DNA from: Sporisorium sorghi
Taxonomy: Eukaryota > Basidiomycota > Ustilaginomycetes > Ustilaginales > Ustilaginaceae
DNA length: 64,000 nt
Assembly: GCA_023212695.1 (NCBI GenBank)
Contig: JALCCG010000016.1
Location: 62,001 to 126,000 of the forward strand
Direction: 5' to 3'
The position numbers and the translations under genes are program-made. Positions 36,049 to 43,303 of this stretch are shown here, one piece after another. Positions within the stretch are counted from its first letter, which is position 1; every line of letters begins with the position of its first letter. Below the pieces are notes generated by a model. It was not told where the DNA came from. It saw nothing but the letters and a program-made list of their open reading frames with translations, and did no database searches.

Positions 36049-36578
36049 CTATAATTTGCGACCTTCCGTCAACCGCACCCAGAAGCCGCCTTTGAAGCTT
36101 TTCGGTTCATGAGAGATGATAAACGCCTGCGGCGACATTTTGCCCAGCGTCTCCATCAGACGGCGCTCGTTCTTCCGTTTCACGAGAACCTGCAGCAGAG
36201 CCGCTTGCCGTCCTTGCCATCCGCTTCCCATGCGGTCACGCCGTATCCCTTCTCCCGCAGGTTCATCGCCAGGTTGGTCTCTACGGAATTTACAATGACC
36301 TGTACCACGATGTACCCGAGTGCCAAATACTCCTCGATCCGGCTGCCGGCATATACCCCAAGGCCGAAGCCCAGGCAATAAGCCGCCATATTAAAGGGAT
36401 TGTCCAGATTTTGCAGAACGAGATTCAGACCGAGCAAGTAAACGAATACCTCCAGCATGGCAAGAAGAGAGGCTACCCCTCTTCTGCCTTTGATCATCAG
36501 AATCAAGCGCAGCGTAAAAATGGAGACATAGACTACGTTGATGCCGATGATCGAGCCGATAAGCGACAGCGAGATCAT
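36049..36578 (-). pseudogene. UPF0316 (DUF2179) membrane protein gene, frameshifted
   Basis: The first part (36578 to about 36201) encodes three membrane helices and the start of the DUF2179 domain (VASLLAMLEVFVYLLGLNLVL, then GYGVTAWEADGKDGKRL). The frame then runs into a stop at 36180. The rest of the domain (VLVKRKNERRLMETLGKMSP and SFKGGFWVRLTEGRK) continues in another frame to 36049. A single missing base near 36195-36201 explains this. Its ATG overlaps the ectD stop by 4 bases, so it belongs to the ectoine operon. Sequencing error, true loss, or a programmed shift are all possible. Confidence 0.8.
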
Positions 36579-37483
36579 CGAGAATCACGGGCAGCAATGT
36601 ACTCCGGCCTAGGGCTCTGACCCGAGTAGGGCTGAACGATCTTATTTTCCACACTGTTATAGACCATGAAAATATTGCTGCGCGGCATAGGCGTGATATT
36701 GCTGTTCGAGCCGTGCATAATGTTGCAGTCAAACAGCACGATCGATCCCGCTTTGCCAACAGGTGTATCAATTCCGCCTTCCTTCACCAAGCGTGTCAGA
36801 CTGTCATGGTCAGGAACGCCATATTCCTGCTTGCGCAGCGAATCCTTGAAGTGATTATCCGGTGTCTTGCCAACGCAAGCCACAAACTCCTTATGGGATC
36901 CAGGCACGACCATGAGCGGGCCATTAAAGGGATAGTTATCCTCTAGTGCGATGGAGCAGCTCAAAGCCCTCATCCGCGGCATGCCGTCCTCCACGTGCCA
37001 CGTTTCGAAATCGGAGTGCCAGTAGAACTCCTTGCCCGTAAAACCCGGCTTGTAATTGATGCGCGATTGATGGATATAGGTCTCGCTTCCCAGCAGATAT
37101 TCCACAATGGCCAGGAGTCTCGGATGCTGGGACAGCTCCTGGAATACCGCATGGCTGTGATGCACCGCGAACACCGAACGCACTTCGTCACCGCCTGGCT
37201 CTCGAATAACTTCATCCTTCTCCGACTCTCTCGCGGTCACCTGCAGACTGCGGGCTTCCGCCTGATAGTGCTGCAGTTCCTCCCGATCGAAGAAACCTTC
37301 CAGAAACAAATATCCGTTGCGCTCATAGAATTCGGATTGCTCCAGTGTTATAGAAGCATCCGGTGTCCAGTCCGAATACACCACAGGATCCTGTCTCTTT
37401 AAGAGCCTTGGCTCTGAATGCAATCTCGAAGGATAAACGTCCATCTCTTTTTCCTGAAAGGCCGATACCTGATTATGACTCAT
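36575..37483 (-). CDS. ectD: Ectoine hydroxylase
   Basis: A 302-residue Fe(II)/2-oxoglutarate dioxygenase. The EctD signature region reads SRINYKPGFTGKEFYWHSDFETWHVEDGMPRMRAL; its H-x-D pair (HSD) and the later histidine in DCNIMHGSN form the iron site. PGSHKEFVAC and the arginine in MPRSNIFMVYNS are also typical. It converts ectoine to 5-hydroxyectoine. It overlaps ectC and the following membrane-protein gene by 4 bases each, indicating coupled translation. Confidence 0.95.
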   Translation of the reverse strand: MSHNQVSAFQEKEMDVYPSRLHSEPRLLKRQDPVVYSDWTPDASITLEQSEFYERNGYLFLEGFFDREELQHYQAEARSLQVTARESEKDEVIREPGGDEVRSVFAVHHSHAVFQELSQHPRLLAIVEYLLGSETYIHQSRINYKPGFTGKEFYWHSDFETWHVEDGMPRMRALSCSIALEDNYPFNGPLMVVPGSHKEFVACVGKTPDNHFKDSLRKQEYGVPDHDSLTRLVKEGGIDTPVGKAGSIVLFDCNIMHGSNSNITPMPRSNIFMVYNSVENKIVQPYSGQSPRPEYIAARDSR

Positions 37484-37890
37484 CGCATGTCATCTCCTTT
37501 GATCGATATGGGGGCAAGCAGCGGGTAGGTTCCTTCCTCGTCATGAACTTCAGCCCCCGTCAGCGGCGGATTGAACACGCAGACCATCCGCATCTGGGAA
37601 CGAGCTCTCAAATAATGCTTTTCATGTCCATCCAGTGCGTACATCATCCCCGGAGAGATGGGGTAAGTCTCACCCCCGACCACCTGGATCTCACCCTCTC
37701 CCTCGATGCAATATACAGCCTCGACATGATTTTTGTACCAGATCAGCGTCTCGGTTCCGGCCTTAATGATGGTGTCATTGAGGGAGAAGCCCATGCCGTC
37801 TTTGGTGAGCAGGAGTCTTCTCGAATTCCAAGTCTTCGCATCGATATCGTCCTTCGTATCCACAATCTCTTTCAAATGTTTAACAATCAT
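37480..37890 (-). CDS. ectC: Ectoine synthase
   Basis: A 136-residue cupin enzyme beginning MIVKHLKEIVDTKDDI. The barrel motifs include ETLIWYKNHVEAVYCIEGEGE and GMMYALDGHEKHYLRA with metal-binding residues. It closes N-gamma-acetyl-diaminobutyrate to ectoine. It overlaps ectB and ectD by 4 bases on either side. Full length. Confidence 0.97.
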   Translation of the reverse strand: MIVKHLKEIVDTKDDIDAKTWNSRRLLLTKDGMGFSLNDTIIKAGTETLIWYKNHVEAVYCIEGEGEIQVVGGETYPISPGMMYALDGHEKHYLRARSQMRMVCVFNPPLTGAEVHDEEGTYPLLAPISIKGDDMR

Positions 37891-39179
37891 GACAACCTCT
37901 CCTCTGCTGCTAATTGTTTCACGCTGTTTATAAATATCCCCAATCCCTGCTCCAATGTGTCCAACTCAATCGTCAGCGGTGGCATGAGTTTCGCTACTTC
38001 ACTGTGCGGACCTGACGTTTCCATAATCAGTCCCTGCTCGAAGGCGATTTCAGACAATCTGCCTGCGAGCTCCGGCTTATTAAAGGCAAATCCCTGGATC
38101 AGCCCCCTGCCCCGTATTTCACCGCTGAGCTGTGGATAATCCTTAGCTATACAATCCAAGGATTCGCGAATCTGATTCTCGCGAATACCGATATCAAGCT
38201 GAAAATCTTCCGTTTCCCAATAATTCAGCGCTGCCGCTGCAGCAACGAATCCAAGATTGTTGCCCCGGAAGGTGCCGTTATGCTCGCCCGGCTCCCAAAT
38301 ATCGATCTCCGGCTTCATCAGCGTGAGCGCCATCGGCAAGCCGAAGCCGCCGATCGATTTCGAGAGGCATATGATGTCCGGCTCAATACCGGCATCATCA
38401 AAGCTGAAGAACGGACCCGTTCGGCCGCAGCCCATCTGGATATCATCCAGAATGAGCAGCATCCCCTTATCCTTGCAGATGCGCGCAAGCTTTTGCAGCC
38501 ATTCCCCGCTCGCAGCGTTCAACCCGCCTTCACCTTGTACAGCTTCAACGATAACCGCCGCCGGAAGCGGAATACCGCTCCCCGGATCATCCAGAAGCTT
38601 CTCCATATATGCCATCGTATCCACGTCATCGCCGAAGTAACCGTCATAAGGCATAAATACCGAGTGGCTCAGATCCACGCCAGCACCCTGCCGCTTGAAG
38701 GAATTGCCGGTAACAGCCAGTGAGCCGAGGGACATGCCGTGAAAGGCATTCGTGAAGCACAGAACGGTGCTGCGCCCTGTCACCTTCCGCGCGATCTTGA
38801 GCGCTGCCTCTACCGCATTCGTGCCGGTCGGACCGGGGAACATCACTTTATAATCCCAGCCTCGCGGCTTTAGAATGACTTCCTGAAAGCGGGTCAGAAA
38901 GGTCTCCTTCGCTTCGGTAGCCATATCCAGACTGTGTGTAACACCATCCTGCATCATATAATCAACCAGCTTCTGTCGAATCTTCTCATTGTTGTGTCCG
39001 TAATTTAACGCGCCGGCGCCGGCAAAAAAATCAATGTATTCATTGCCTTGCGTATCCCACAGCCTTGCATTCCGAGCCTTGTCAAAGACCGTCTGGAAGC
39101 TGCGGCAATAACTTCTTACTTCCGATTCCAGATTGTTAAACACCGTAAGCTTCGGTTTCTCCATGACTTGATTGTCCAT
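37887..39179 (-). CDS. ectB: Diaminobutyrate-2-oxoglutarate transaminase
   Basis: A class III PLP aminotransferase of about 430 residues. Key blocks are FAGAGALNYGHNN, FPGPTGTNAVEAALKIARK, the FHGMSLGSLAVTGN loop, the aspartate of LLILDDIQMGCGRTG, and the PLP lysine in CLSKSIGGFGLPM. It makes L-2,4-diaminobutyrate from aspartate semialdehyde using glutamate. The ATG at 39179 follows GGAGGG; an ATG at 39206 overlaps ectA and lacks a site. Confidence 0.96.
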   Translation of the reverse strand: MDNQVMEKPKLTVFNNLESEVRSYCRSFQTVFDKARNARLWDTQGNEYIDFFAGAGALNYGHNNEKIRQKLVDYMMQDGVTHSLDMATEAKETFLTRFQEVILKPRGWDYKVMFPGPTGTNAVEAALKIARKVTGRSTVLCFTNAFHGMSLGSLAVTGNSFKRQGAGVDLSHSVFMPYDGYFGDDVDTMAYMEKLLDDPGSGIPLPAAVIVEAVQGEGGLNAASGEWLQKLARICKDKGMLLILDDIQMGCGRTGPFFSFDDAGIEPDIICLSKSIGGFGLPMALTLMKPEIDIWEPGEHNGTFRGNNLGFVAAAAALNYWETEDFQLDIGIRENQIRESLDCIAKDYPQLSGEIRGRGLIQGFAFNKPELAGRLSEIAFEQGLIMETSGPHSEVAKLMPPLTIELDTLEQGLGIFINSVKQLAAEERLS

Positions 39180-39195
39180 AATTCCCTCCATTGGT

Positions 39196-39708
39196 CTAAA
39201 TGTCATTGAAAAAGGGGCCTATCACGAATAATGGCTCATCTTCATGTGACGTTCCATCCGGGAACATCTCCGCTCCATAACCTACGGTTACGGTGCTGGG
39301 AATGGATTTCTCCTCGGCATAACCGAGAAATAACCGGCGGGATGCCATGTTGCTTGGCGATACCGTTGTTTCAATGAAGCGAACGCCGTGACATGCCCTC
39401 TGGTTCATGAGTCCTGTCAGCATGGCCTTCGCAATCCCTTGCCTCCGATGCGAGCCGGCAACGGCCACCTGCCATACAAACAGCGTTTCCGGATTACGCG
39501 GTGAGCGGAATGCAGAGATAAAACCGATGATGTCTCCTTCGTGCTCGGCGATCATACAGGTATCATTGAAATAGTCTCCAAGCAGCATATAGCAATAGGG
39601 GGAATTCAGATCTAGTGATCCGGTATCTCTTACGAGCTCCCACACCCGGGCGCCATCCTGCGCTTCCGGTCTGCGATAAACGATGTCCACTCCAGTATCA
39701 ACAATCAT
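39196..39708 (-). CDS. ectA: L-2,4-diaminobutyrate acetyltransferase
   Basis: A GNAT-fold acetyltransferase of about 170 residues. The acetyl-CoA loop is VAVAGSHRRQGIAKAMLTGL, and the EctA-typical stretches LDLNSPYCYMLLGDYF and FIETTVSPSNMASRRLF are intact. It acetylates diaminobutyrate for ectoine synthesis. I take the ATG at 39708 with AGAGGTG ten bases upstream. No ectoine-specific aspartokinase gene is present in the operon. Confidence 0.95.
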   Translation of the reverse strand: MIVDTGVDIVYRRPEAQDGARVWELVRDTGSLDLNSPYCYMLLGDYFNDTCMIAEHEGDIIGFISAFRSPRNPETLFVWQVAVAGSHRRQGIAKAMLTGLMNQRACHGVRFIETTVSPSNMASRRLFLGYAEEKSIPSTVTVGYGAEMFPDGTSHEDEPLFVIGPFFNDI

Positions 39709-39752
39709 TCTATACAAGCACCTCTTTCCATGATCAGTCCCCTGCTCATTTT

Positions 39753-40595
39753 TCAATTAGAGCGGAATCGCTGCAGAAAGTTTTGCAGCCGCTCGCTCCG
39801 GGGATTATCGAATATCTCCTCCGGCGTCCCCTGCTCGACGATCAAGCCGTCCGCACCGAATATGACCCGGTCGGCGATTTCCTTGGCAAAATCCATTTCA
39901 TGCGTAATCAGCATCATCGCCATATCGCCTTCTTCCGCGATTTCCCAGATCACCTCCAGCACCTCGCCTACCAGCTCCGGATCCAGAGCCGAGGTCACCT
40001 CGTCGAACACCATCACCTTCGGCCGCATGACCAGCGCTCGTGCGATAGCAACACGCTGCTTCTGCCCCCCGGACAGATTGGCCGGGTACATCTTCAGCTT
40101 GTCGTCCAAGCCGACTTTGCCCAGCATGGAGACGGCCCGCTCCTCCGCCTCCTCCTTGGATAAACCCAGCACTTTGCGCGGAGCCTCCGTCACATTGCGA
40201 AGCACACTCATATGCGGGAACAGATTAAAATGCTGGAAAACCATACCGACGCTGCAGCGCATTCGGTGCAAATGCTTCTCGTTTGCCCGAACAAGCCTGC
40301 CCTTCTCTTGCATATGCCAGAGAAGCTCACCATCAACCTCGATGGTGCCTTCAGTCGGTTCCTCCAGTGTCATTAACATCCGCCCCATCGTCGTTTTGCC
40401 CGAGCCGCTCGGACCAATAACAGCCACCTTTTCTCCAGGCTGCATCTCCAGATCGATGCCTTTAAGCACCTGGAGATTACCAAACGACTTCGTCACGCCC
40501 TTGTATCTCACCATCGGCTTCACTTCCGCTGCCGGGTTTGGATCAGGCTGCGGCACCTCGGCTCCGGCAAACGCATCAATCACTACTGCGTTCAA
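39753..40595 (-). CDS. ehuA: Ectoine/hydroxyectoine ABC transporter ATPase
   Basis: A 280-residue polar-amino-acid-type ATPase: Walker A GPSGSGKTT, signature LSGGQKQR, Walker B VMVFDEVTSALD and switch ITHEMDFA. The start is TTG at 40595, six bases after AAGGAGGG; about 30 residues precede the ATPase core. It lies between ehuD and ectA, with 12- and 44-base gaps. The Ehu assignment rests on the linkage to ectABCD and the ehuBCDA gene order. Confidence 0.88.
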   Translation of the reverse strand: MNAVVIDAFAGAEVPQPDPNPAAEVKPMVRYKGVTKSFGNLQVLKGIDLEMQPGEKVAVIGPSGSGKTTMGRMLMTLEEPTEGTIEVDGELLWHMQEKGRLVRANEKHLHRMRCSVGMVFQHFNLFPHMSVLRNVTEAPRKVLGLSKEEAEERAVSMLGKVGLDDKLKMYPANLSGGQKQRVAIARALVMRPKVMVFDEVTSALDPELVGEVLEVIWEIAEEGDMAMMLITHEMDFAKEIADRVIFGADGLIVEQGTPEEIFDNPRSERLQNFLQRFRSN

Positions 40596-40607: not shown

Positions 40608-41270
40608 TTATTTTCCACGCTGCAGATTCATTCGTTTCTCCAGCCTTTGCACCAGCAAAGACGCGATATAACTGATAATTAGAAACAGAATGCCAACCAG
40701 CGTATACGGCTCGAATGCACGAAACGACTGGGAAACGATATTCTTGGCTGTCAGCATCATCTCAACAAGCGTAATGGCACACAGAATCGGTGTTTCCTTA
40801 AACATGACAATCAAATAATTGCCCAGCACCGGAATAATAGGCGGCACCGCTTGCGGCAGAATAATGCTCCGCCAGGTTTGGGCTTTCGTGTAATTCAGAG
40901 CAGTTGCAGCTTCCCACTGCCCCTTGGGGACCCCTTCGATGCCAGAACGATACACTTCGGACAGATACGTGCTGTAATGCAGCCCAAGACCGATCACCCC
41001 GGCATAGAAGGCCGGAATGGAGATTCCGGTAAGGAGCGGCAGACTGTAGTACAGGAAGAAGACCTGAACCAGCAGCGGTGTATTGCGGATAAATTCGATA
41101 AGACCTTTGGTCATGAGCGACACAGGCTTCCACTGGCTTCGAGCAGCAAAGGCAAGCAGCAGTCCGATTATCAAGGCCACCACAAAAGCGCAGAGCGTCA
41201 CCCATACCGTCATTTTTAATGCACTCAGCAATTCCGGCAGGATATCAAACACATAATTCCAATCCCACAT
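40608..41270 (-). CDS. ehuD: Ectoine/hydroxyectoine ABC transporter permease
   Basis: A 220-residue permease of the polar amino acid (HisM/GlnP) family with about five membrane helices and the loop GVPKGQWEAATALNYTKAQTWRSIILPQA. A GGGGAGG site precedes the ATG, and only three bases separate it from ehuC. It forms the channel with EhuC. Confidence 0.88.
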   Translation of the reverse strand: MWDWNYVFDILPELLSALKMTVWVTLCAFVVALIIGLLLAFAARSQWKPVSLMTKGLIEFIRNTPLLVQVFFLYYSLPLLTGISIPAFYAGVIGLGLHYSTYLSEVYRSGIEGVPKGQWEAATALNYTKAQTWRSIILPQAVPPIIPVLGNYLIVMFKETPILCAITLVEMMLTAKNIVSQSFRAFEPYTLVGILFLIISYIASLLVQRLEKRMNLQRGK

Positions 41271-41273
41271 CCG

Positions 41274-41936
41274 CTATAGCCTCCCCGCCGTCCATTTACG
41301 CTCCAGCAGCCGAACTGCCATCGAGACAAGCGTAGCTATGACAAAATACATAAGAAGCAGCAGCACCAGAATCTCGGTTGTCCAGGAAATATAGTTGTTG
41401 CGCAACACCATGGCCTGATACGTCAGATCCGCCATCGTGATGAAATAGACAAGTGACGTAGATTTGATGAGTTCCACCAGCTGATTTCCGAATGGCGGGA
41501 GCATTCGCAGTGAAGCTTGAGGCAATATAACATTCCACATCCTTTGCCATGGCTTCATATTAAGCGCCACCGAAGCTTCCCACTGTCCTTTTGGAACAGC
41601 CAGCACCGCGCTTCGGACAATCTCGGAGCCATATGCGCCAAAGTTGAATCCAATCGCAAGGATGGCTGCCAGCATTTTGGGAAGCTCAATGCCGATAAAC
41701 GGAAGAGCAAAATACAACCAGAACAGCTGCACCAGCAAGGAGGTTCCCCGAAAGATTTCCACATACACGGCTGTAACCGTGCGGACGATCCACAGCTTCG
41801 ACAGTCTGGATAAACCGGCTGCGAAGGACATGGCAATGGCCAGAACAGCTGAAAAGAAGGCGACCAAAACCGTAATCTCCGCTCCTTTCAGCAGAGTAGG
41901 AAGAAAATCGATCCATGAATTCGGCATACTATTCAC
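41274..41936 (-). CDS. ehuC: Ectoine/hydroxyectoine ABC transporter permease
   Basis: A 220-residue permease closely similar in layout to EhuD, with the loop AVPKGQWEASVALNMKPWQRMWNVILPQA. It overlaps the end of ehuB by 8 bases if the GTG at 41936 is used; an ATG at 41927 is the alternative. Translational coupling to ehuB is likely either way. Confidence 0.88.
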   Translation of the reverse strand: MNSMPNSWIDFLPTLLKGAEITVLVAFFSAVLAIAMSFAAGLSRLSKLWIVRTVTAVYVEIFRGTSLLVQLFWLYFALPFIGIELPKMLAAILAIGFNFGAYGSEIVRSAVLAVPKGQWEASVALNMKPWQRMWNVILPQASLRMLPPFGNQLVELIKSTSLVYFITMADLTYQAMVLRNNYISWTTEILVLLLLMYFVIATLVSMAVRLLERKWTAGRL

Positions 41937-42795
41937 CGCAAAGCGCAGCGGCTGTCATCTCGCCCGGCAGCTCTTCTTCGGTAAATCCAAACTTCTGCAA
42001 GATCTCCAGCAGCTCACCTGACTCCTTCATTTTTTCAAGCTCCGCATTATAAGCCTCCTGGAATTCGGTATCCGCTTGACGGAATGCCGTGGCCCCATAG
42101 CCCCGAACGCTTTCACCGTCGATGACCGGCTGTTCGAAATCCGCGACGCGTTCGATGTTGTCATCGCTGGCCGAATCCAGCATCGCCTGCAGGGACGGTC
42201 CCGTCATGGTAATCGCCTGCACCCGGTCTGCCTGGAGGGCACTGATGGCCGAGGCCTGATCGGGAACCTGTATGATCCGGTCCGAAGGGATGCCTGACTT
42301 CTCCATATAGCCGATTTCAACCGCGCCAGTCATGACGGCCACCTTCGCCTGATCATCCTTGGCAATATCTTCGTAACTTCCGAGTCCACTTGGATTCCCT
42401 TGCTTCACGGCAAGAGCTTCCCCTATGCTGTACTCCGGATTAGCAAACAAAACGGCGGAGCAGCGGTCCGGATTGATGAACATGCCTGCAGTGATCAGGT
42501 CAAACCGTTCCGCCTGAAGCCCGGCAACCAGGGAGCCGAACTCCGTAAGCTCACCTCTCATCTCCTTAATGCCAAGTCGCTCCAGAATGACACGGGCAAT
42601 CTCAACGGCTTCGCCTGTAAGCTCCCCGCTGGCCTCTTTGTAGGCATAAGGCTTCTCATTGGCAAAACCTACGGTAATATACCCCTGCTCTTTGGCCCGT
42701 TCCAGCGTGCTCCCCTTATCGCCGCAGGCCGCGAGCGATACCACCATAACCAATGACAACAACAGCACAACAACTTTCTTCAACACCTTCCACAA
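41929..42795 (-). CDS. ehuB: Ectoine/hydroxyectoine-binding lipoprotein
   Basis: A family 3 solute-binding lipoprotein of about 285 residues. The signal peptide ends with the lipobox SLAAC, and the mature part starts DKGSTLERAKEQGYITVGFANEKPYAYKE, typical of EhuB and polar amino acid binders. No ATG is in frame near the start: TTG at 42795 and GTG at 42786 are the choices, each with imperfect ribosome binding sites. First gene of the ectoine operon, about 470 bases after the transcription start, behind a riboswitch. Confidence 0.88.
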   Translation of the reverse strand: MWKVLKKVVVLLLSLVMVVSLAACGDKGSTLERAKEQGYITVGFANEKPYAYKEASGELTGEAVEIARVILERLGIKEMRGELTEFGSLVAGLQAERFDLITAGMFINPDRCSAVLFANPEYSIGEALAVKQGNPSGLGSYEDIAKDDQAKVAVMTGAVEIGYMEKSGIPSDRIIQVPDQASAISALQADRVQAITMTGPSLQAMLDSASDDNIERVADFEQPVIDGESVRGYGATAFRQADTEFQEAYNAELEKMKESGELLEILQKFGFTEEELPGEMTAAALCGE

Positions 42796-43067
42796 CCTTT
42801 CGCAATGACTTTGTCGTTCCTAAAAACGGCATGAGGAAATTATCCATGTTAACACATGAGTTAACTCGGATATGTGACATTCAGACACACTTGCACAGTC
42901 CAGGGGCTCAGGGGAGAGGTTGCATCCATTTCCCTGTGCCTTGTAAACCCAAACCGTCTGACTGATTCAATTGGCTAAACATTAGCAGGCATTGCCCTCC
43001 TCTTTTGCAGAATACAAAAAGACCACCAAACAGGGGATCTAGACATAGCTCCGCCAGCAGGGGGTCA

Positions 43068-43108
43068 AAAAATAGAGAAAAGGCCCCTATAGAGAATAAA
43101 GGGCCTTT
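43068..43108 (-). terminator. Riboswitch-controlled intrinsic terminator
   Basis: On the minus strand AAAGGCCC and GGGCCTTT (43101-43108 and 43078-43085) form an 8-bp stem, followed by TCTCTATTTTTT. It lies 39 bases after the riboswitch aptamer and before ehuB, and is the expected expression platform. Confidence 0.82.
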
Positions 43109-43146
43109 GTTATGAACATCCATTATGTATACAAGACCCATCCACT

Positions 43147-43268
43147 GCTGACGAGGTTAGCTGACGGACTCGGGTAAGATGGTACCCTACACTCGTGAAT
43201 TCAAGTGACTCGCCCCTGATGAAACTGGTTCCCCCGCTCTCCGGAAATGTATGCCGGAAACTAAGCGT
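43147..43268 (-). promoter_or_regulatory. ydaO/yuaA-type c-di-AMP riboswitch
   Basis: Read on the minus strand, the leader shows the conserved blocks of the ydaO RNA in order: CGCTTAG; a small TCCGG/CCGGA hairpin; GAGCGGGGGAACC; GGGGCGAGTC; GTAGGGTACC and TACCCGA; and the highly conserved 3' segment CCGTCAGCTAACCTCGTCAGC (one base over is trimmed here to its core GTCAGCTAACCTCG). These strands form the pseudo-symmetric c-di-AMP pocket in known structures. The element begins at the predicted transcription start and is followed by a terminator, so ligand binding should stop transcription into ehuB-ectD. In the family, c-di-AMP turns off genes for potassium and osmolyte uptake and cell-wall turnover. 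Confidence 0.9.
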
Positions 43269-43274
43269 GTGTTC

Positions 43275-43303
43275 ATGATAAAGGGAAGCTCAGTAAAAGT
43301 CAA
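43275..43303 (-). promoter_or_regulatory. Promoter of the ectoine operon
   Basis: On the minus strand TTGACT (43298-43303), 17 bases, TATCAT (43275-43280). Transcription would start near 43268, immediately before the riboswitch aptamer. Confidence 0.78.

Follow-up and report, generated by a model that had tools for sequence, protein, structure and literature searches.

An open question about ectoine (ect) genes is how they sense osmotic need, and the mechanism at one well-studied ect promoter is called not yet clear in a passage of a review (PMC5924519) from which the words "riboswitch" and "c-di-AMP" are absent. The question is raised again by an operon for ectoine import and synthesis that lies in a 64-kb stretch of DNA (the window, meaning the whole stretch analyzed) behind a leader of the ydaO type. 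That ydaO riboswitches occur near osmoprotectant synthesis and transport genes is already known (PMC7288161 and PMC9960051, in the passages available).

The ehu-ect Operon

The gene order ehuB-C-D-A-ectA-B-C-D, as given by the initial annotation, was borne out, with each gene scoring above its NCBIfam cut-off. The genes are contiguous on one strand, with overlaps or gaps of no more than 12 nt, and form a compact import-plus-synthesis operon that is followed by a ninth gene.

41929-42783, minus strand: ehuB, ectoine/hydroxyectoine binding lipoprotein (TIGR02995, 292.4 bits, cut-off 190.9; match to PDB 2q88)
41274-41936, minus strand: ehuC, permease (TIGR03004, 240.7 bits, cut-off 196.95)
40608-41270, minus strand: ehuD, permease (TIGR03003, 293.1 bits, cut-off 205.2)
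39753-40595, minus strand: ehuA, ATPase (TIGR03005, 378.1 bits, cut-off 345.4)
39196-39756, minus strand: ectA, diaminobutyrate acetyltransferase (TIGR02406, 175.4 bits, cut-off 120.6)
37887-39206, minus strand: ectB, diaminobutyrate transaminase (TIGR02407, 657.1 bits, cut-off 552.2)
37480-37890, minus strand: ectC, ectoine synthase (NF009806, 196.5 bits, cut-off 128; PF06339)
36575-37483, minus strand: ectD, ectoine hydroxylase (TIGR02408, 379.1 bits, cut-off 336.5; match to PDB 3emr)
36049-36578, minus strand: ninth gene, membrane-type with DUF5698 and DUF2179, overlapping ectD, frame broken in this assembly

For ehuB, a TTG start at 42783 is suggested by the leader alignment (by eye), the longest ORF running from 42795. 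The frame of the ninth gene is intact in locus L012, and a DUF5698 match lies behind ectD in 28 of the 80 named ect loci surveyed below; no credible solved relative of its protein was found by sequence (best E 0.77), and DUF2179 is grouped with PII-like folds. Between 35850 and 42800, on both strands, neither promoter-like motifs (5, against 5.8 in shuffles) nor terminator-like ones (2, against 5.7) were in excess.

The nearest named genome is that of Paenibacillus glucanolyticus NBRC 15330 (EctC 99%, EhuB and EctD 100%), and the assembly looks mixed, with this window looking like P. glucanolyticus. Passages of PMC6915088 report ehuBCDA-ectABCD in 37 of 41 ect-bearing Paenibacilli, including P. 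lautus Y4.12MC10, whose operon has the gene order of the window and is without ectR. This fits the distinction drawn in the initial annotation between the present operon and EctR control. The text available of the same paper describes no regulatory leader for the P. lautus operon, the word "leader" occurring 0 times.

The c-di-AMP Aptamer and Its Promoter

When the window was searched against Rfam (cmscan), the sole match above gathering score was to RF00379 (c-di-AMP/ydaO), at 43277-43131 with 70.6 bits, ahead of the compact ehuBCDA-ectABCD. The Infernal/Rfam check proposed with the initial annotation thus supports a ydaO-type aptamer on the minus strand, and its place at the head of import and synthesis together is supported as well. 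The conserved ydaO blocks that had been described are likewise there, with the GTCAGCTAACCTCG core present and 47 of the 56 upper-case consensus positions identical; the window aptamer is a sound RF00379 member.

43131-43277, minus strand: c-di-AMP (ydaO) aptamer (RF00379, 70.6 bits, cut-off 38, E 2.3e-14, match over the whole model, 1-134)
43178-43182, minus strand: pseudoknot loop strand CCAUC of the aptamer, partner GAUGG at 43142-43138 (helix 8 of a 14-sequence ydaO alignment)
43275-43303, minus strand: promoter TTGACT-17-TATCAT, kept as TTGAC[AT]-17-TAnnAT in 12 of 12 Paenibacillus leaders
42844-42869, minus strand: dyad CCGAGTTAAC-n6-GTTAACATGG, a possible mRNA hairpin or operator

The fold was assessed in an alignment of 14 ydaO RNAs (that of the window, five from ect loci and eight from the window's own assembly), which, because it was built from known hits, tests the coherence of the fold and not its discovery. 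Standard pairs filled 88.9% of the cells of the Rfam helices and the CCAUC:GAUGG pseudoknot, compared with 40-56% in slid controls, and 13 pairs were changed on both sides. For the pseudoknot helix, 77.1% of cells were paired, with changes on both sides in two of its five pairs. The ligand can be made, since diadenylate cyclase (DAC) domain matches were found in both the window's assembly (three) and P. glucanolyticus (three). Binding of c-di-AMP, OFF polarity and a salt response would be carried over to this leader by analogy with the RF00379 family.

The TTGACT/TATCAT promoter of the initial annotation was located at 43303-43275. By motif scan alone, one promoter was found where 1.5 would be expected in shuffles of the same kilobase, but it is credible because the hexamer pair and its 17-nt spacing are kept in all 12 aligned Paenibacillus leaders; three Brevibacillus leaders of the same alignment are without TTGAC[AT]-17-TAnnAT. 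Transcription is expected to start at about 43270-43268, at the foot of the aptamer. The leader continues for about 230 nt between T2 (the second of the two hairpins described below) and ehuB. The dyad pattern CCNAGTWNAN-n-TTWACNNGG recurs about 60-90 nt 5' of ehuB in six of the 80 named loci, all six of them ydaO-ehuB leaders, with imperfect copies in further leaders (by eye, in the leader alignment).

Three observations concern the surroundings of the leader. It is flanked by a 19-nt direct repeat (84% alike, 43462-43444 and 43002-42984, 460 nt apart); a gene for a collagen-like repeat protein (PF01391, 43766-44722, plus strand) lies upstream of it on the opposite strand; and its comparison with plasmid records gave one match, 62% covered at 75.5%, to a 2.7-Mb Paenibacillus cellulosilyticus record.

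An intact aptamer could sit in a leader that no longer answers c-di-AMP in the cell, with expression set by an osmotically responsive promoter or by a protein at the dyad near ehuB. Several bacteria are reported to have ect promoters that respond to osmotic conditions (passages of PMC5924519), and an unresponsive riboswitch with two terminators has been described (PMC11218506, in the part available). The aptamer core, the pseudoknot strands and the promoter have, however, been kept in 12 related leaders whose flanks have diverged, which argues for use, and we regard an unresponsive leader as quite improbable. That this operon carries a working c-di-AMP OFF switch, whichever hairpin it acts through, is in our view likely.

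Two Terminator-Like Hairpins

43067-43108 (stem 43108-43079), minus strand: T1, terminator-like hairpin GGCCC...GGGGCC with interrupted U tract
43016-43066, minus strand: T2, second terminator-like hairpin GACC.CC...GG.GGUC with UUUUU, invariant 5' part CCC.UGCUGGCGGAGCU
43135-43155, minus strand: aptamer 3' strand CUCGUCAGCAG-uggau-GGGUC, by complementarity the candidate partner of the T2 5' arm (43066-43049)

The initial annotation had placed one intrinsic terminator in the leader. The T1 hairpin is indeed there, but it is probably not the main switch terminator, as the complementarity of its arm to the aptamer does not exceed that of shuffles, whereas that of the T2 arm lies beyond nearly all of them. 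T2 follows T1 directly, just outside the interval of that annotation, and was missed there. The T2 hairpin is followed by at least five U in all 12 leaders, in four of which one or two other bases precede the U run. Neither hairpin was among the results of a simple terminator scan of the window confined to loops of 3-8.

No other block outside the aptamer stays invariant over so long a stretch of the 12-leader alignment as the 5' part of T2, CCC.UGCUGGCGGAGCU. Such constancy is not expected of a terminator loop. The block is for the most part the complement of the aptamer 3' strand (GACCC with GGGUC, CUGCUGGC with GUCAGCAG, GAG with CUC). Across 13 leaders (the 12 ect leaders and L028), the duplex of the T2 5' arm with the aptamer 3' strand was computed at -21.5 to -28.1 kcal/mol and was matched by 0-14 of 500 dinucleotide shuffles per leader, tests that are not independent because the leaders are related. 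L028 has the arm sequence, and the T2 hairpin was not seen there. The corresponding duplex of the T1 5' arm was equalled by 52-373 of 500 shuffles in the 12 leaders; this arm shows no pairing with the aptamer beyond that of shuffled sequences. With an aptamer that does not vary and leaders that are related, the T2-aptamer pairing can show no covariation. Ligand and pairing should exclude each other, since in the ligand-bound state CUCGU belongs to the core helix and GAUGG to the pseudoknot.

The end of the conserved block, GCUAUG at 43049-43044, is kept as well (GCUGUG in one leader), and only its G pairs with the aptamer. A short upstream ORF in T2 (GGAGCUAUG...) was rejected as conserved coding, as in L016 it meets a stop after two codons (by eye). 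The T2 16-mer occurs exactly in 11 of 295 Paenibacillaceae genomes, eight of them ydaO-ehuB leaders, and at up to one mismatch in 104 of the 295.

For the free leaders, equilibrium folding gave T2 a probability of 0.00 in 10 of 12, the remaining two having 0.28 and 0.13; with the aptamer imposed it was 0.83-1.00 in all 12, T1 remaining at 0.97-1.00 in both states. The expected aptamer-arm register reached 0.49-0.99 in 11 of 12 leaders and 0.00 in L019. When the apical arm was shuffled, the mean T2 probability was 0.09 compared with 0.03 for the native leaders (12 leaders); when the aptamer strand was shuffled it was 0.19 compared with 0.05, and 0.11 when another aptamer stretch was shuffled (nine of the 12 leaders). 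A clear rise of T2 was seen only in L018 and L021, with low values in most leaders. Equilibrium folding was accordingly withdrawn as proof of T2 switching, as T2 stays low with a shuffled arm or aptamer strand; the computation is unspecific, probably through pairing of the C-rich arm with further G-rich stretches of the aptamer. With folding controls unspecific and covariation impossible, the T2 mechanism draws on complementarity and conservation, from which we think that T2 would be the main switch terminator.

The limits of the scored terminator scan are shown by the first Syntrophomonas terminators and the main Brevibacillus-type terminators, for which it gave no equilibrium coupling; in L084, coupling was seen for the second hairpin, and in L026 for the first. 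For the pairing of tail to terminator in Brevibacillus-type leaders, values as low were reached by 6-221 of 500 shuffles in seven leaders and by 487 of 500 for L209, which is only suggestive of a specific pairing in some of these leaders.

T1 could still be the real terminator, and switching might take place only there, with T2 a back-up or constitutive terminator-like hairpin whose complementarity is incidental. The T1 fold is present in every one of the 12 leaders, its distance from the aptamer is the usual one, and its arm allows GGGUC to pair with GGCCC. The scored scan retained T1 in 10 leaders and T2 in only 8 of the 12 (with modest scores), and the equilibrium folding controls do not single out T2; at the c-di-GMP riboswitch Bc1, moreover, the response to ligand is masked by the distal one of its two terminators (PMC11218506, in the part available). 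Nevertheless, besides the shuffle result for its arm, the T1 U tract is interrupted in several leaders (by eye), and the T2 arm is invariant over a block largely coinciding with the stretch complementary to the aptamer. A switch at T1 only is considered unlikely.

Proposed Mechanism

The reading preferred here, a ydaO OFF switch acting by termination on ehuBCDA-ectABCD as a single unit and centered on T2, is held as a whole with moderate confidence. At high c-di-AMP, when there is no osmotic need, the ligand would hold the aptamer 3' strand, CUCGU being part of the core helix and GAUGG of the pseudoknot; with the strand so held, T2 would fold and transcription would stop before ehuB. As c-di-AMP falls, the aptamer 3' strand would pair with the T2 5' arm (GACCC, CUGCUGGC and GAG, about 16 bp across T1), T2 could no longer fold, and the import and synthesis of ectoine and hydroxyectoine would be expressed together. 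T1 may serve as a first, weaker checkpoint, or as a spacer hairpin that brings both strands together.

Distribution and Evolution of the Pairing

A genome collection held 309 relatives of ectC, the best 80 of which were fetched as the named loci. Rfam found RF00379 in 8 of the first 14 of these, and our own ydaO model (R1; E up to 10, default filters) placed ydaO in the fetched stretch of 24 of the 80, at least six of which are too short upstream to judge. In 19 it stands before ehuB, ectA or an ABC gene ahead of ect: 15 times before ehuB, three times directly before ectA (two Syntrophomonadaceae and one Firmicutes MAG), and once, in L084 (assigned by hand), before an ABC gene pair with best matches to betaine/choline types under their cut-offs, ahead of ectABC. 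In the other five, ydaO closely follows the ect operon and stands in front of a radical SAM gene of the KamA family (above the TIGR00238 cut-off, below that of AblA); these are L026 (11369-11506), L027, L028, L029 and L038, and in L028 UGACCCUGCUGGCGGAG stands after the first hairpin. One named locus, L013 (P. lautus NBRC 15380), has no ehu or ectA match in the fetched stretch and only an ectD piece beside ectC, and is possibly an eroded ectoine locus.

A second sample of 398 genomes from the class of Brevibacillus and 398 from the phylum of Syntrophomonas yielded 48 ect loci (44 and 4) from 48 and 7 genomes over the cut-off, with fragments, weak matches and genomes already in hand left out; the 80-locus and 48-locus sets share some genomes. 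ydaO was found in 12 of the 48, two of which are too short upstream: seven times before ehuB and five times before ectA, three of these five between ehuA and ectA. Rfam found RF00379 in all 12 loci tried (10 of the sampled 12, together with L088 and L072). Three matches are weak (39.9-44 bits), with a degenerate core (GCCAGCCAGCCUCG in L187); they come from the related loci L187 (4605-4466), L189 (7322-7464) and L191 (4769-4620), lie between ehuA and ectA, and may represent a decayed or a variant aptamer.

Other ydaO copies in the same genomes also have recognizable neighbors. Besides ehuB, the genes behind the P. glucanolyticus sites are three of the NlpC/P60 type (one scanned and scoring under the specific cut-offs, the other two judged by eye), a TrkH gene, an unassigned gene with kdpA behind it, and one with a weak resemblance to wall-binding proteins; the stretch behind one further site is unassigned. 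Two of these riboswitches, L105 and L107, are separated by about 1 kb, and each has an NlpC/P60-type gene behind it. Syntrophomonas zehnderi has five RF00379 matches; the genes behind four of them concern compatible solutes, namely ectA, a gene resembling glutamate 2,3-aminomutase (637 bits, under the cut-off of 650), one for a ProV-type ATPase, and one for a permease whose best matches are choline/betaine types, below cut-off; the fifth stretch is too short. The window's assembly (23.17 Mb, 469 contigs) contains 10 RF00379 matches, with the ydaO stretches of L004 and L010 at 36-38% G+C compared with about 46-52% for the other eight.

A quick EctB tree was built from 123 rows, 6 of 129 loci being omitted for a short or broken EctB. 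The 13 Paenibacillus ydaO rows (including the window and one duplicate) form one starred clade, and a second clade holds the eight Brevibacillus-like rows, of which six have ydaO ahead of ehuB and two ahead of ectA. Presence and absence of ydaO require at least seven changes on this tree over the judgeable rows, some of them on weak branches. The association of ydaO with ehu and ect might be held to be chance or lineage baggage without regulatory meaning, as 41 of the 56 named ehuB-first operons are without ydaO (one of the 41 being too short upstream) and only 15 have it. However, with eight RF00379 matches in about 6.1 Mb of P. glucanolyticus, a place within 1 kb upstream would be very unlikely to arise by chance, and the EctB tree shows ydaO ahead of ehuB or ectA on several separated branches, with the changes counted above; we find mere chance or baggage hardly credible. 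The recurrence of the pairing in other Bacillota argues for function.

A broader statement would be that two terminators stand in series under one aptamer, the distal one controlled through the 16-bp pairing of arm and core strand across T1 as a two-checkpoint OFF switch, and that Bacillota have repeatedly acquired, and widely use, c-di-AMP riboswitches to control the import and synthesis of ectoine. This joint claim is put forward tentatively, with somewhat less than even confidence.

Comparison With Known Systems

The ydaO/kimA and yuaA/ktrAB riboswitches of Bacillus subtilis have aptamers of the same family, RF00379, and control K+ importers (PMC7288161, in the passages available), whereas the window leader stands before ectoine import and synthesis. 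The ydaO/kimA leader is switched OFF by termination (PMC9960051, in part), the same mode that is proposed for the window. Unlike these two B. subtilis riboswitches, the window has two successive terminator-like hairpins.

Closer in some respects is ablA of Dehalobacter sp. CF, where tandem Na+ and c-di-AMP riboswitches occur and c-di-AMP lowers read-through in vitro, and where, according to the passages available, bases of the aptamer core are predicted to pair with the 5' arm of the terminator in the absence of ligand (White et al., 2022, PMC9337991). It shares with the window a c-di-AMP aptamer before an osmolyte-synthesis gene and a predicted pairing of core bases with a terminator arm, but differs in that the window has no Na+ aptamer match, has ectoine as its osmolyte, and carries two hairpins after one aptamer. 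A tandem-aptamer logic gate for Na+ plus c-di-AMP was not found in the window leader: no second Rfam family exceeded its score in the 64-kb window, and the best sub-threshold matches within 42780-43110 had E values of at least 2. Candidates for a second known aptamer 3' of T1 were rejected, there being nothing credible by Rfam in the window (best E 2), and the best match after T1 in L021 (E 0.057) belonging to an sRNA family far under its cut-off.

Bc1 of B. thuringiensis, as described in the available part of PMC11218506, resembles the window in having one cyclic-dinucleotide aptamer, here for c-di-GMP, followed by two intrinsic terminators 28 bp apart (in the window, terminator-like hairpins). 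It differs in ligand class, and its T2 is intact with ligand, whereas the T2 arm of the window is complementary to the aptamer.

No report of a c-di-AMP riboswitch before ect genes was found in the titles, abstracts and passages of the open literature; the tables of Block (2010) and Nelson (2013) may list ect genes. The ehu-ect operon itself is known (PMC6915088, in the passages available), and the position of its riboswitch was not found in print within this scope, yet it recurs.

Implications

These findings suggest that the Bacillota concerned use c-di-AMP to decide ectoine uptake and synthesis, and a c-di-AMP riboswitch offers a concrete, testable input to the osmotic sensing of ect genes. 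If this is true, a messenger with an established role in controlling K+ uptake would in addition govern when ectoine takes the place of K+, and the riboswitch could serve as a simple handle for the production of ectoine and hydroxyectoine.
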